Source: Chloroflexota bacterium | Lineage (GTDB): Bacteria > Chloroflexota > Anaerolineae > Anaerolineales > Anaerolineaceae | Assembly (NCBI GenBank): GCA_023381565.1 | Contig: JAMCRR010000037.1 | Span: 50,171 to 114,170, forward strand | Length of the DNA stretch: 64,000 bases | Reading direction: 5' to 3' | In this document: piece by piece, positions 29,739 to 47,475 of the stretch | Position numbering within the stretch: position 1 is the first letter of the stretch | Layout of the letters: every line of letters begins with the position of its first letter | The notes under the pieces: generated by a model | Seen by the model: the letters and a program-made list of their open reading frames with translations, nothing else | What the model was told of the DNA's origin: nothing | Database searches by the model: none | Made by a program: the position numbers and the translations under genes

Positions 29739-31013
29739 ATGGTGCAGATGCTGCGCCGGTGGGCGCGAAACCTGCCAACATTGATCCTGTCCTTTGCGCT
29801 GGCGCTTGCAGTCTGGATCACGGCGGTAACTCAAGAAGATCCAAACCTCAACCAGCTTTATCCGCAGCCGGTGCAGGTCGAGGTGGTCAGCCTGGATCCC
29901 AGCCTGGTGTTGACGAGCATGTCGCCGCGCCAGGTGAGCGTGCGCATCAACGCCCCTCAGAGCATTTGGAACCGGCTGTACTCCGAAACGGGGTTGATTA
30001 CCGCAGTGGTCGATCTATCCGGCCTGGGTACAGGGACGCACCGTGTGCCGGTCAAAGTGCAGCCTGCTGCCGGCGTGCGACCGATCGAGATTGTATCCAC
30101 CACCCCTCAAAACATATCCGTGACATTGGAAAATCTGGCCTCGCACAGCTTTGCGATTCACATGGATATTACGGGTAATCCCGCGGTAGGATTCCAGGCG
30201 GGAAACGCCAGCCTGAGCTCGACCACCGCGGATATCTCCGGCCCGCAAAGCCTGGTCGAATCGGTGAAGGAAGTGCGCGCCTCGCTCAACCTCGCCCAAG
30301 CGAATGAAAATATTGACCGTTCGGTAACCCTGCAGCCGCTGGATGCGAATTTGCAGGTCGTGAACGGAGTGACAGTAAATCCGTCGGAAGTGACTGTGCA
30401 AGTGCCGATCACCCAGCGCTATGGCTACCGCAATGTGGCGGTTAAGGTGGTTGTGCAGGGGCAGGTGGCGCTGGGCTACCGGTTGACTTATATTTCGGTT
30501 ACTCCGGTAGCAGTCACCGTCTTTTCTGCTGACCCGACAATCGTGGACGGTTTGCCGGGATACGTCGAAACTCAGCCGGTCGATCTGGCCGGTGTCAAGA
30601 CTGACATTGAAGCACAGGTACAGCTGAATCTGCCCAGCGGGGTCTCCGTCGTCGGCAACCAACCCGTCCTGGTACAAATTGGTGTTACCCCAATTGAAAG
30701 TAACCTGACGATGAGCAGCCTGCCGGTCAAGGTCACCAGCCTGGCGCCGAATCTGGCGGCGCAGGTTTCGCCCCCTAATGTAGACGTGATCCTTTCGGGC
30801 GCGTTGCCTATATTGGATACGCTCACCCCAGCGGATGTGAGTGTCATCGTGGACCTGACGGGCAAGGAAGTGGGCACCTACCAGGTAACCCCCACCGTCA
30901 AGCTGAAAAACCAGGACCTGGTGAGTACAACGGAGAGTGCGAGTACGGTCGAGGTCCAGGTAATCGTAGCCCCCACACCAACACCCACACCAAGACCCAC
31001 ACCAAAACCCTGA
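29739..31013 (+). CDS. cdaR: YbbR-domain protein, CdaR-type regulator of CdaA
   Basis: A 424-residue protein with one N-terminal span (LPTLILSFALALAVWITAV) and four YbbR-type beta modules outside the membrane (about residues 45-125, 130-215, 225-310, 315-410; markers PVQVEVVSL, SFAIHMDITGNP, NVAVKVVVQG, LPVKVTSLAP). It ends in a Thr-Pro-rich tail. CdaR proteins modulate diadenylate cyclase activity in Firmicutes. The close spacing with cdaA supports the same role here. Confidence 0.9.
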   Translation: MVQMLRRWARNLPTLILSFALALAVWITAVTQEDPNLNQLYPQPVQVEVVSLDPSLVLTSMSPRQVSVRINAPQSIWNRLYSETGLITAVVDLSGLGTGTHRVPVKVQPAAGVRPIEIVSTTPQNISVTLENLASHSFAIHMDITGNPAVGFQAGNASLSSTTADISGPQSLVESVKEVRASLNLAQANENIDRSVTLQPLDANLQVVNGVTVNPSEVTVQVPITQRYGYRNVAVKVVVQGQVALGYRLTYISVTPVAVTVFSADPTIVDGLPGYVETQPVDLAGVKTDIEAQVQLNLPSGVSVVGNQPVLVQIGVTPIESNLTMSSLPVKVTSLAPNLAAQVSPPNVDVILSGALPILDTLTPADVSVIVDLTGKEVGTYQVTPTVKLKNQDLVSTTESASTVEVQVIVAPTPTPTPRPTPKP

Positions 31014-34149: not shown

Positions 34150-36312
34150 CTAAGGCTGCCAGGCGGGTTGGGCGTCTCGGAAAGCATCCTTCGTCAAATT
34201 GGTTTGCAGCGTTCCTGCAGAGGTCATCAGAAAAATGTCCGTATTCCCGCTGCTGGTCGAGCTGTAGACGATCCAACGGGAATCTGGGGACCAGGCAGGC
34301 TCTCGGTCTGCGTTCCCGGCTGTCAGACGTGAGAGGCTTGCCCCGCGAGATGAAAAGAGTACCGACCAGATCTGTGCATGGCCACCATCCAGACGGGTGT
34401 AGGCAATTTGGCTGGCGTCCGGCGACCAGGCCGGGTCTGAAACCTGGCCCAACCTGCCGTTGACGCTGAAGCGGTCGAATGGTTCTGGGGTAAGGTAGCC
34501 GCCCGACTCGCCTCGCATGTACAGGAAGGGGTAATTGTTGGCTGAGATCACGTACACCAGCCATTGCATGTCGGGCGACCAGATTGGATAGGTTTCGTTA
34601 AACTCGAGACTGATCCGGGTTTGCTGACTTCCATCGGGGTTCATCAGGTAGATCTGGGGAATCTTGTCCTCGCGCCCATTATTGCTGAAAGCGATCTTAT
34701 TCCCATCCGGCGACCACGCCGGCTGGCGGTCATCGCCGGGTTTCTGGGTCAGGCCACTCTGACCCCTCTGCAATCCCTTGATCACCCAAACATCCAGGCC
34801 CATGTCTTTCCCATTGAGGGTACCCCCCGGGGCAACATAGAGCAGCTTCTTTCCGTTTGGCGACCAGGCCGGCTGGCTTTTGTTGCCCGGGTTGAAAGTG
34901 AGCTGGCTGAAATTCGAGGCGCTGACCAGCCCTCCGCTGCCGGTGGAAACCTGCATGGTCCAGATCTGGTCCGTGGATCCATCGGCACGGTTGCTGACGA
35001 AAGCGATCGCCTGTCCGCCTCCCAACGGGGCGGAGGTGGTCGAAGGCTGCAGGGTAGGTGGCGCAGCGGTTGGCGGAACAGGCGTCTGGCTGGGGGGCAA
35101 TGGGGGAGGAGTGCCGGTGGGCAAAGGCGGGGAATTCGTGGGCAGCGGGGATGGCTGAGGCGCTGTGGGAGAATTCTGGGTACCAGATGGCGCAACTCCC
35201 TGAGCTGCAGAGGTCAGCACGATGGTTTTATCGGGAGTGGAAAATATCTGATTGGCCTTCAGGATTGTATAAACGCCGCCGGAAAAGAAACAGACCGAAA
35301 GAACGACTGCTGCACTGGCGAAGATGGTCAACATTTTCTTCCACTTGGGAGACAATACACGGCGTGGAGCGGCAGCAACAGGCGCGGCAAGCGGAATTGT
35401 CGCTTCGGAAGGAACTGCGGCAGCTACGGGAATGGTTGCCTCGGAAGGGACCGCTGACAGGGGGATAGTTGCCTCTGAAGAGACTGCCGACTGGGTGATG
35501 GTTGCTTCGCTGGAAGACCTGTTTAATACCTTCACCATATCCGTGATATTGGGGAAGCGCTCATCCGGACGGACGGCCAACCCCCTCTGGATGGCGTCTG
35601 CGATCGTTTGGGGGATATCGGGCCGCAGGGATTGCAGAGGGGTCAGAGTGGCCTGACCCAACAATCGCTGAACGGCATCGACCGGGCGCTGCCCGGAGAG
35701 AAGCGTATATAAGGTGGCTGCGAAAGCGTACTGGTCGGAGTACGGGCCGGTGCGCGCCCCGCCGTACTGCTCGGGCGGCGCATACCCGGGGGTGTAACCG
35801 GCTGCCCCTGTAGCAGTGGATTGTGAAGGGTCGGATGCCTTGGCGATGCCGAAATCAACCAGGATGACCTGCCCATCAGATTCCAATTTGATATTGGCGG
35901 GCTTGATATCGCGGTGGATCACCGGAGGGTTCTGCTCGTGGAGGTAGCTCAACGCTTCACCGAGCTGAATTGCCCAATGCACGACCTGGTCTACCGGTTG
36001 AGCGCCTTCTTTGCGCAACCGATTTTCGAGGTCATCTCCGGGGATGTAATCCATCACCAGATATTGATTTTGATCCAGGACGAAATAATCGATCACGCGG
36101 GGAAGGTGAGGGTTGCGCAGAGAGGCTAAAAGATGAGCCTCGCGCAAGAATTGGCTGGTGCTCTCGTTGGTTGCGCGCTGGTTGATTTTTACAGCCACCG
36201 GATGCTCCAGAGAGGTGTCGTCAGCCAGATAGACCGCCCCCATGCCTCCCTTCCCAAGCTGTCTTACGATGCGGTACCGGTTGTAAAGCAAGGTTCCTGG
36301 CGCAATATCCAT
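34150..36312 (-). CDS. Membrane serine/threonine protein kinase with SEATI repeats and a TolB/WD40-like propeller
   Basis: A 720-residue protein. The kinase domain (residues about 10-270) has LGKGGMGAVYLA (glycine loop), VAVKI (Lys), HRDIKPANI (catalytic loop), VDFGIA (DFG) and a YAPPEQYGG P+1 region. Four SEATI motifs follow at a spacing of about 10-15 residues (about 275-320). One membrane span comes next (IFASAAVVLSVCFFSGGVY), then a Pro/Thr-rich linker, and then an extracytoplasmic propeller of PD40/TolB type (WSPDGNKIAFSNNG, WSPDMQWLVYV, WSPDASQIAYT, WSPDSRWIVYS). Family knowledge suggests a receptor kinase. Confidence 0.93.
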   Translation of the reverse strand: MDIAPGTLLYNRYRIVRQLGKGGMGAVYLADDTSLEHPVAVKINQRATNESTSQFLREAHLLASLRNPHLPRVIDYFVLDQNQYLVMDYIPGDDLENRLRKEGAQPVDQVVHWAIQLGEALSYLHEQNPPVIHRDIKPANIKLESDGQVILVDFGIAKASDPSQSTATGAAGYTPGYAPPEQYGGARTGPYSDQYAFAATLYTLLSGQRPVDAVQRLLGQATLTPLQSLRPDIPQTIADAIQRGLAVRPDERFPNITDMVKVLNRSSSEATITQSAVSSEATIPLSAVPSEATIPVAAAVPSEATIPLAAPVAAAPRRVLSPKWKKMLTIFASAAVVLSVCFFSGGVYTILKANQIFSTPDKTIVLTSAAQGVAPSGTQNSPTAPQPSPLPTNSPPLPTGTPPPLPPSQTPVPPTAAPPTLQPSTTSAPLGGGQAIAFVSNRADGSTDQIWTMQVSTGSGGLVSASNFSQLTFNPGNKSQPAWSPNGKKLLYVAPGGTLNGKDMGLDVWVIKGLQRGQSGLTQKPGDDRQPAWSPDGNKIAFSNNGREDKIPQIYLMNPDGSQQTRISLEFNETYPIWSPDMQWLVYVISANNYPFLYMRGESGGYLTPEPFDRFSVNGRLGQVSDPAWSPDASQIAYTRLDGGHAQIWSVLFSSRGASLSRLTAGNADREPAWSPDSRWIVYSSTSSGNTDIFLMTSAGTLQTNLTKDAFRDAQPAWQP

Positions 36313-45523: not shown

Positions 45524-46690
45524 ATGACCATGAAGAAAACGGAAATTTTCCATTTACCCGCTCCCATTGTTACAATCCTTCTTATTGTGGTCTGGTTTTG
45601 CATTGGGTGGGTCGCTTCTACTCTCTATCAGCGCATGACTGATCCTTCCCGTGGAATGATTGCAACGGTGATTGGTAATATCCAGGCTAAAGCCTATGCA
45701 GAAACTTCTCGCCAAGAATTGACTTATAACGCTATTAAATCCATTCTATCTTCCCTGGGTGATCGTTATGCGGAATTTCGCGATCCTGTTCTAGCTTCTA
45801 GAAATTCACAGGAATTGGAGGGAGATGGCACTGCGGCGATTGGGGTCAAGGGCGAGATGCAGAATGGGCAATTTGTCCTCACCGAGATCATCCCCGCTCT
45901 CCCCGCGGATCTAAATGGATTAAAACCCGGGGATATCATCACCAGCATCGATGGCTGGACCATTCCTGCCGATTGCACTTCAAACGACGTCCTGCTCATG
46001 CTGAGAAATAAAGATGTACCGGTTGCTCATCTGGAAGTGTCGCGATCTGGAAGCCAGATGTCATTGGATATCCCCCGCCAACCGGTAGAGAGCGTACAGT
46101 CGAAAGTCCTGGATCATCAAATCGGTTATCTTCGGTTCGACTTGATAGGTCAAGACACACCGGGAATGATCAAAACAGAAATAGAAAAACTGCAGAGTAA
46201 AAACATTCAGGGATTGATCATCGATCTCCGGTATAACGGCGGTGGTTGGATGGAGGCGACTCTAAAGATCATCGATCTATTTGAGGCGGAAGGGATTGCA
46301 TATTTTGCCCGGTTGCGCGATGGGACAGAAATTTCATATCCTACCTCTTCTGGCGACATAGCGGAGAAAATCCCTCTGGTGGTACTGATCAGCCATGCTA
46401 CTTATTCGGCATCCGAAACGATGGCTGCATCCTTGAAAGATCGGGGGCGGGCAGTATTAGTCGGAGAAACTACCCATGGAAAAGGCTCGATTGTAGAGAA
46501 TATTTCATTGGCGGACGGGTCAGAGATAGTGTTTACTGTGGCGCGTTGGATATCCCCGGTGAATAAAACCGATTATGAGGGAATAGGTGTTCCGCCCGAC
46601 ATAGACATTGCGGATAACAGCAACAGCGGAAAGGATGGAGTTCTCGATGCGGCGGTAGATTATTTACTGTCACATCGCCAAGGTTCGTGA
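45524..46690 (+). CDS. S41 family C-terminal-processing-type protease
   Basis: A protein of about 388 residues. It has an N-terminal signal anchor (PIVTILLIVVWFCIGWVAS), a helical lead, a PDZ domain (about residues 95-180; LKPGDIITSIDGW), and the tail-specific protease core (about 200-370). In the core the Ser nucleophile is in HATYSASETMAASL and the Lys general base in VGETTHGKGSIVE. It should sit on the outer face of the membrane and cut proteins near their C-termini. Starts at 45524 and 45530 are both possible and neither has a clear ribosome binding site. The GGFGAWS-repeat gene begins 67 nt after its stop. Confidence 0.9.
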   Translation: MTMKKTEIFHLPAPIVTILLIVVWFCIGWVASTLYQRMTDPSRGMIATVIGNIQAKAYAETSRQELTYNAIKSILSSLGDRYAEFRDPVLASRNSQELEGDGTAAIGVKGEMQNGQFVLTEIIPALPADLNGLKPGDIITSIDGWTIPADCTSNDVLLMLRNKDVPVAHLEVSRSGSQMSLDIPRQPVESVQSKVLDHQIGYLRFDLIGQDTPGMIKTEIEKLQSKNIQGLIIDLRYNGGGWMEATLKIIDLFEAEGIAYFARLRDGTEISYPTSSGDIAEKIPLVVLISHATYSASETMAASLKDRGRAVLVGETTHGKGSIVENISLADGSEIVFTVARWISPVNKTDYEGIGVPPDIDIADNSNSGKDGVLDAAVDYLLSHRQGS

Positions 46691-46757
46691 ATAACCACTT
46701 ATTCTGCCCGGTGGTTTTCAACCCAATCTTTCAATGCGGCAGAGAAAGGAGAAGTGC

Positions 46758-46982
46758 ATGAAGAAAGTCTTATTGTTCTCCACGATTGTTTTACTGGTTC
46801 TGATCATAGTCGCAGCAATTTCGTCCCCCTTGATCACCGGTCCAACCTCCGGTGGTTTCGGGGCCTGGTCAGGCGGCTTTGGAGCCTGGTCGGGCGGATT
46901 CGGCGCCTGGTCGGGTGGCTTTGGGGCCTGGTCGGGTGGCTTCGGCGCATGGTCAGGTGGCTTTGGGGCCTGGTCGGGCTGA
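46758..46982 (+). CDS. Secreted or membrane-anchored peptide with six GGFGAWS repeats
   Basis: A 74-residue protein. It starts MKKVLLFSTIV after AAAGGAGAAG, has one hydrophobic segment (about residues 4-24) and a short GPTS spacer. Residues 32-73 then repeat GGFGAWS six times, followed by a final Gly and TGA. The repeats differ from each other only at silent positions, which argues that the amino-acid pattern is under selection. There are no charged residues after the Lys pair at positions 2-3. I know of no family. A perfect 16-bp hairpin follows, and the S41 protease gene precedes it on the same strand. Possible roles: surface amyloid-like or adhesive peptide, protease substrate, or peptide precursor. 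Confidence 0.8.
   Translation: MKKVLLFSTIVLLVLIIVAAISSPLITGPTSGGFGAWSGGFGAWSGGFGAWSGGFGAWSGGFGAWSGGFGAWSG
46851..46976 (+). repeat. Six tandem 21-bp repeats encoding GGFGAWS
   Basis: Six in-phase 21-bp units fill 46851-46976. Units 4 and 6 are identical; the others differ at Gly, Phe, Ala and Ser wobble positions only. Several independent silent changes indicate that the array is not a very recent expansion. Confidence 0.95.
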
Positions 46983-47004
46983 TTCCAGCAAAATCATTTG
47001 ATTA

Positions 47005-47042
47005 CAATAACACCCCGGATCTTCCCATCCGGGGTGTTATTG
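47005..47042 (+). terminator. Perfect 16-bp hairpin after the repeat-peptide gene
   Basis: Arms CAATAACACCCCGGAT (47005-47020) and ATCCGGGGTGTTATTG (47027-47042) enclose CTTCCC. It lacks a long T-run, but the distal arm ends T-rich, so it is probably a transcription terminator or mRNA 3'-end stabiliser. Confidence 0.8.
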
Positions 47043-47111
47043 TTACAGGATGATTTTACAATGTCATGGCTGGCCCTGCTACCATCAGAATAACTTCTAT
47101 CAGGTATTGGA

Positions 47112-47164
47112 CATGGTCGGGCCGCTTCGGGGTTGGTCGGGCTGATTCCAGTAAAATCATCTCA
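47112..47164 (+). repeat. Decayed duplicate of the 3' end of the GGFGAWS gene
   Basis: About 53 nt beginning CATGGTCGGGCCGCTTC closely match 46948-47000, covering part of the last two repeats, the TGA and the bases after it (GATTCCAG then AAAATCAT). One base is missing in the GGGGCCTGG part, so the reading frame is broken. It points to a tandem duplication of the gene followed by decay. Confidence 0.85.
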
Positions 47165-47289
47165 CTACGCGCATATAGTACATATGAAAATGCGATAAGT
47201 CAATTTACAGAAATGTTAGTTCTAAGAAGAACCCACAGGTTTATTTTCATCAATGGGAAAACTTTGATAATTTATCTTGACAAATCATC

Positions 47290-47319
47290 TTGACATCCCC
47301 TACCCGTTTGTGATAAACT
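47290..47319 (+). promoter_or_regulatory. Candidate sigma70 promoter upstream of the 32-codon ORF
   Basis: TTGACA (47290-47295) is followed, after 16-18 nt, by GATAAACT (47312-47319), a plausible -10. It would drive the short ORF at 47357, and transcription could reach the ABC operon if the two downstream terminators are passed. Confidence 0.6.
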
Positions 47320-47356
47320 CTTTTCGTCAGTTACAACTAAGAGAAGGACGCACGAA

Positions 47357-47455
47357 ATGATGGATATCTTCAGCATCAAAATCGATAGGGTTTGCGCTGC
47401 AGCGGTTTCTGGCAGTGCCAAATTACCTTCGCGGAGTGCGCCTATTTACCGGTAA
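47357..47455 (+). CDS. Short ORF, 32 aa, possible leader peptide
   Basis: ATG ATG at 47357 is preceded by AGAAGGA and a promoter. The 32-residue product starts MMDIFSIKIDRVC and ends SRSAPIYR, mildly basic with one Cys. It ends before two successive terminator hairpins, the second just upstream of the ABC operon. That geometry fits a leader peptide or a small independent peptide gene, but no run of one regulatory codon is seen. Too short to test by composition. Confidence 0.4.
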   Translation: MMDIFSIKIDRVCAAAVSGSAKLPSRSAPIYR

Positions 47456-47475
47456 ACCGATGTAAGCCAATCACC

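Follow-up and report, generated by a model that had tools for sequence, protein, structure and literature searches.

A gene for a membrane-anchored S41 peptidase with a PDZ domain and a gene for a small, putatively secreted peptide of short tandem units form a dedicated, recurrent pair in the class Anaerolineae. In the window (the whole stretch of 64,000 nucleotides of Chloroflexota DNA analysed here), ORF calls and Pfam searches confirm what a preliminary description had proposed: an S41/PDZ protease is separated by 67 nt (46691-46757) from the start of a 74-residue peptide containing six perfect GGFGAWS units. The features of this locus are given in Table 1.

Table 1. Features of the S41/array locus and its 3' flank in the window
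Feature	Position	Strand	Basis
S41 peptidase, 388 aa from ATG, with N-terminal membrane anchor and PDZ domain	45524-46690	+	ORF, Pfam, AF2
PDZ domain, residues 105-183	45836-46072	+	Pfam, CtpB alignment
Arg161, aligned with CtpB substrate sensor Arg168	46004-46006	+	Alignment; PMC3808539
Ser295, nucleophile equivalent (CtpB Ser309)	46406-46408	+	Alignment
Lys320, counterpart of CtpB Lys334	46481-46483	+	Alignment
Val324, at the triad Gln site (CtpB Gln338)	46493-46495	+	Alignment
Shine-Dalgarno AAGGAG of the peptide gene	46746-46751	+	Sequence, ahead of ATG 46758
Putative secreted repeat peptide, 74 aa	46758-46982	+	ORF
Putative signal/anchor segment MKKVLLFSTIVLLVLIIVAAISSPLITGPTS	46758-46850	+	AF2 helix 2-22 at high pLDDT; similar N-termini in relatives
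Six exact GGFGAWS units, then Gly-stop	46851-46976	+	Codon comparison
17-bp hairpin 3' of the peptide stop, probable terminator	47004-47043	+	-28.8 kcal/mol, z -6.0
Decayed duplicate of array end, stop and 3' UTR, 57 nt, with a 1-nt deletion	47112-47168	+	Score 64 vs best of 300 shuffles 25

The window S41 protein exceeds the Pfam cut-offs for Peptidase_S41 (PF03572; E 7e-40, 136.7 bits) and PDZ_2 (PF13180; E 1e-6, 29.1 bits) and misses that of the NCBIfam family prc (TIGR00225; 177 vs 218.6 bits). Its AF2 model has a pLDDT of 89.7, with a helix at residues 13-39. CtpB and CtpA are the closest folds, and D1 protease is also among the nearest solved relatives. The peptide half matches no Pfam family at the thresholds used, its NCBIfam matches all fall below cut-off, and AF2 yields no confident fold for the GGFGAWS array (pLDDT under 50). 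Heptapeptide release, trimming and an amyloid- or silk-like nature, all raised in the preliminary description, are possible readings for this array.

TRF reports the window array as periods 21, 42 and 63. Six nucleotide sites vary across the six units, and all six are third codon positions; pairwise differences amount to 50 synonymous and 0 non-synonymous, and the chance that every variable site would be silent under neutrality is about 3e-4 by a simple count. The repeat unit is under purifying selection at the protein level, in agreement with the earlier reading of its silent variation. Such variation tells against a relic, that is, an S8 subtilase gene stripped of its catalytic domain or a chance-open minisatellite with no role. 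The identical unit does occur as an S8 tail in two other genomes (G261 and G306), and a decayed copy of the array end, the trace of a tandem duplication, lies downstream. The window array, however, stands alone, with its own Shine-Dalgarno sequence, signal and stop and no attachment to an S8 domain, and is followed by a hairpin; arrays also recur five times, independently or semi-independently, beside the same S41 clade. A relic is thus largely refuted and very improbable. No second copy of the array was found elsewhere in the window genome. Short tandem repeats of periods 12 and 33 are also present in the window, at 30972-31010 and 35428-35509.

Six S41 proteins from five families of Anaerolineae, namely that of the window and those of genomes G534, G511, G783, G548 and G079, form one clade (SH-aLRT 100) in a maximum-likelihood tree of 110 S41 homologues (quick search, no bootstrap), with no seventh member among them. 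An array gene adjoins the S41 gene in all six and in no S41 control locus, so that the pairing put forward in the preliminary description holds throughout the clade. No member keeps the S41 gene without the repeat ORF, the arrangement which that description had named as evidence against it. The units are GGFGAWS in the window, GGYGxWS/A in G534, VNWGGS in G511, GGWSWA in G783, SIGTIN in G548 (at least 13 Trp-free units) and QATAWSG in G079; this last array could be a peptide or a protease tail, because the contig ends within it. Since the SIGTIN array of one clade member lacks Trp, the Gly/Phe/Trp/Ser chemistry emphasized earlier is not the essence of the system. The stand-alone arrays have a mature length of about 38-90 residues and a chemistry ranging from Trp-rich to Trp-free, with Lys and Arg absent from the arrays compared. 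The peptide C-termini share no motif: three end in WSG, WAG or WGG, and those of G534 and G548 in NYAH and SSF. Synonymous to non-synonymous pairwise differences are 35:0 in the G511 array and 189:60 in that of G548.

The clade members were reached by different routes. G534, a Thermoflexales bacterium, came from an array-pattern scan of 84,980 GTDB species, in which locus L156 encodes a stand-alone array peptide 12 nt downstream of an S41 gene; the S41 protein encoded there shares 44% identity with that of the window, membrane helix included. A profile built from these two proteases and run on 396 genomes of the class retrieved, besides the query proteins, those of G511 (475 bits) and G783 (314 bits), the next match scoring 275. 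A stand-alone array peptide adjoins the S41 gene in each. As controls, up to ~3 kb on either side of 40 further S41 loci was subjected to a general tandem-repeat scan, and arrays were present beside two, those of G548 and G079. Because G534 was found by its repeat pattern, the independent confirmations are the four found through the protease alone: G511, G783, G079 and G548. The S41 gene comes first in the window, G534 and G511, and the array gene comes first in G783, G548 and G079. Adjacency therefore survives reversed gene order, which argues for a functional link.

Across 101 S41 loci (511 kb), short ORFs combining a hydrophobic start with tandem repeats were confined to clade members, the remaining matches being frames antisense to the linker region in other S41 genes. 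A scan of the 101 loci for Trp-containing arrays likewise gave none outside the six-member clade. Detection restricted to Trp repeats missed G511 and G548, both of which were recovered by the general tandem-repeat scan.

The clade is also distinguished by its active site. In CtpB, the catalytic triad is Ser309-Lys334-Gln338, of which the Gln is called strictly conserved in the CtpB family; a Q338E substitution abolishes activity, and PDZ domains of the family bind substrate C-termini (PMC3808539). (CtpB residue numbers follow a chain offset of 42, derived from the S309A entry.) The triad Gln is kept in one of the six clade members (G079), versus 94 of 95 other S41 proteins, the residues at this site being V (window), V, N, L, Q and T. 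Ser295, Lys320 and the PDZ Arg161 are kept across the clade, and Ser295 is invariant in 18 aligned S41 proteins. As judged by alignment, the window protein has the catalytic Ser and Lys but lacks the Gln of the triad. The loss of Gln in five of the six, considered with the inactivity of CtpB Q338E, suggests that the S41 protein may not cut.

This could mean that the clade consists of pseudo-proteases, or nearly so, which act as sensors and not as cutters: the PDZ domain would bind, report or hold array C-termini, and the free peptide would be a signal. A retained PDZ Arg together with V, V, N, L or T in place of the Gln would fit such a role, as would the inactive CtpB mutant (PMC3808539). Moreover, a sensor histidine kinase gene (MASE9-like, membrane-associated; L201, 3094-4674) lies 10 nt beyond the S41 gene of G783, on the same strand. 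However, Ser295 and Lys320 are strictly kept, although a pure receptor could do without them; in addition, G079 retains the Gln, and the kinase adjoins the S41 gene in one genome only. A sensor is considered unlikely, and the S41 proteases of the clade may cleave.

The S41 and peptide genes of the window look like a closed unit, given the 17-bp hairpin that follows the peptide stop. A terminator consensus scan omitted this hairpin because its T tail pairs within the stem. Strong hairpins are found 3' of the peptide gene in both the window and G534. The preliminary description had also raised, by position, a link to an ABC exporter operon downstream. This candidate was rejected, and the exporter is placed outside the unit, because the hairpin and the exporter's own promoter-like site (TTGACA-18-TAAACT, 47290-47319) intervene and no ABC exporter operon lies beside the S41/array pair in the relatives. 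Besides the promoter-like site, the stretch 47290-47460 ahead of the exporter genes contains a short leader ORF (from 47358) with G+C-rich inverted repeats; possibly, these provide attenuation control of the exporter.

Similar arrays are carried by large secreted proteases. GGxGxWS arrays in several genomes across the family and order are all C-terminal tails of S8 subtilases, and the exact GGFGAWS unit forms such tails in G261 (10 units) and G306 (6 units), from another family of the order. In the GTDB scan, Chloroflexota matches were GGxGxWS tails of S8 proteins and the one stand-alone peptide of L156; the 44 matches outside Chloroflexota, many of them antisense frames or Gly-rich low complexity, were left out. 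A stop-anchored array pattern, which is blind to other unit types, matched only the window and one chance-like sequence in G487 among the 396 class genomes. A search of 101 relatives for exact GGFGAW gave nothing beyond single matches, which fell in unrelated ORFs (esterase-like and rhodanese-like sequences, for instance). In viral contigs, the array pattern matched three copies of one short, charged and unrelated ORF.

Within the S41 clade, G534 has an S8 tail with GGYNSWA units and G511 has WGSVQ units on two S8 genes, which lie in tandem (L288, 426-5243), each with a (WGSVQ)n tail. In G783, an S8 tail bears GGWAWT units, and the S8, peptide and S41 genes are consecutive on one strand, with the S8 gene directly upstream. 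A C25-family protease (34.3 bits vs cut-off 23) is encoded upstream of the peptide in G548 and has (GNLSSI)8 inside the protein. When local alignment scores were compared for these four genomes only, each peptide was closest to the protease array from the same genome, and this pairing ranked first among the 24 possible (p ~0.04). The two arrays are on one contig in G783 and G548; in G534 and G511, assignment of the contigs depends on binning (contamination 4% and 8%, respectively). The window genome (assembly 93% complete) showed no Trp array in the eight S8 loci examined, of nine matches. Array-bearing S8 subtilases are also present in genomes in which no S41 protein of the clade was detected. 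The S8 array therefore does not need the clade S41 protein, and processing of S8 tails cannot be the only or general role of the latter.

Two further features of these proteases were observed. S8 genes with array tails (L205, L207, L208, L209, L210 and L294) adjoin, in conserved synteny, a gene for a zinc-ribbon protein of ~1160-1190 aa; the two such proteins tested have guanylate-cyclase, AAA and TPR domains. In addition, a terminal [VI][YF][LIF]P[LV][VIL] motif ('YLPLV') recurs in many secreted proteins of Chloroflexota, most of them proteases; it is found within the last 14 residues of 11 of 493 ORFs, versus 0.14 expected from internal stretches. Examples are L202, L203, L287, L201 and L289, and the S8 loci L212, L214, L228, L229 and L231. 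This motif is possibly a C-terminal sorting or anchor signal.

The presence of same-style arrays on secreted S8 and C25 proteases suggests that the array could be a common recognition tag. The reading that we favour, although we would put it somewhat short of an even chance, is that the two genes are dedicated to each other, the PDZ-S41 protein recognizing, and probably trimming, secreted arrays. An N-terminal helix would anchor the S41 protein in the membrane, leaving its PDZ and peptidase domains outside, and the small array peptide would leave the cell by means of its signal. The Sec-like signals on the array peptides make it probable that the array encounters the protease domain on the outer side of the membrane. 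By analogy with CtpB, the PDZ domain would most likely bind the array at its free C-terminal end, after which the array would be trimmed or released at the Ser295/Lys320 site, slowly or under regulation in view of the missing triad Gln. Arrays on S8 or C25 proteases and on the free peptide would be recognized in common, which makes these proteases possible clients. The stand-alone peptide could be a soluble partner or dedicated ligand, a competitor or the mature product of recognition.

Possibly, although with somewhat more doubt, the arrays constitute a private, genome-specific address or co-assembly code shared by the free peptide and the S8/C25 proteases, which the PDZ-S41 protein with its altered triad reads, holds or trims. 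Under such a code, and subject to the same doubt, the units would differ between genomes and yet stay matched within each.

The per-genome match between array styles on free peptides and large proteases is also what co-assembly into a structural polymer would need. Arrays would self-associate into a surface or matrix material that captures array-tailed proteases, and the S41 protein would be a chaperone or quality-control protease. The units are uncharged and near-perfect, and stacking of their Gly/aromatic or Gly/Ile residues is conceivable as the driving force, although this too seems unlikely. The absence of a predicted fold, the shortness of the mature arrays and a unit chemistry that spans Trp-rich to Trp-free argue against a polymer, which is accordingly regarded as improbable.

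Each unit might instead be the core of a RiPP or peptide-pheromone precursor, modified or excised to give a small signal or antibiotic. Fungi have repeat precursors that proteases process. Repeat-core RiPPs are known, for example TvgA with TVGG repeats (PMC9062424), and there is sub-threshold NCBIfam similarity to TigB (E 0.0075 and 3.6e-4). The TigB scores are, however, 16.3 and 20.5 bits against a cut-off of 70, and no ORF of radical-SAM type (CxxxCxxC) was found in the window and the contigs of five relatives, apart from one spurious antisense ORF. Furthermore, the peptides have a Sec-like signal in place of a cytosolic leader, and large proteases contain the same arrays as fused segments. 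A precursor of this kind is distinctly unlikely; with the TigB match below cut-off and no maturase nearby in these contigs, this candidate was rejected.

The open-access literature searched contained no paper naming GGFGAWS, GGYGVWS, GGYGAWS or GGAGAWS arrays and no description of an S41/array gene pair; the only match for the string WSGGYG was a Klebsiella vaccine paper. To our knowledge, no system has been described with a genome-specific unit common to a free array peptide and to proteases tagged with arrays. In our judgement, the pair is new as a system, while confidence in its mechanism is low; viewed solely as a protease for C-terminal processing and its dedicated substrate, it would in our view be closer to what is known. 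The recurrent pair connects secreted repeats of low complexity with a modified C-terminal processing protease and suggests a protein-processing or surface system, so far undescribed, in Chloroflexota, a phylum in which little is known of secretion and the cell surface. The clade, which has lost the Gln nearly throughout, is a natural experiment on whether S41 proteases require the full Ser-Lys-Gln triad. Should the arrays be a matched code, for recognition or co-assembly, that secreted proteases share, bacteria would have a new way to tag, gather or release surface enzymes.

Among known systems, Bacillus subtilis CtpB, the CtpA proteins of Pseudomonas aeruginosa and Helicobacter pylori, and D1 protease share with the window S41 protein the fold, the PDZ domain, the PDZ Arg sensor and the spacing of 25 residues between Ser and Lys. 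Unlike these, the clade has lost the Gln in five of six members, is phylogenetically separate, is tied to an array gene, and is represented in the window by a protein below the prc cut-off. In CtpA-LbcA and Prc-NlpI, too, an S41 protease acts outside the cytoplasm together with a partner dedicated to it (PMC8764530, PMC11021448). LbcA and NlpI are much larger, substrate-bringing proteins, whereas the partner here is a 74-aa array peptide. NlpI structures also turned up in the structure comparison of the window S41 model.

Kex2-processed repeat proteins and the yeast alpha-factor precursor have a secretion signal followed by tandem units and are linked to a protease. The window peptide shares the signal and the tandem units; the Kex2-type proteins, however, are fungal, with basic sites between units and an S8 protease, whereas here basic sites are absent and the protease is of the S41 family. 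TvgA and TigB, repeat-core RiPP precursors, are likewise small and consist of many short units (PMC9062424), but are encoded alongside a radical-SAM enzyme, of which none was found in the window and the five relatives' contigs. In the Chloroflexota S8 subtilases with GGxGxWS tails, the array is borne on a protease of ~580-690 aa, with a further short segment after it and no clade S41 gene beside it; these proteins nonetheless share the array of the window peptide, down to GGFGAWS itself in G261 and G306.
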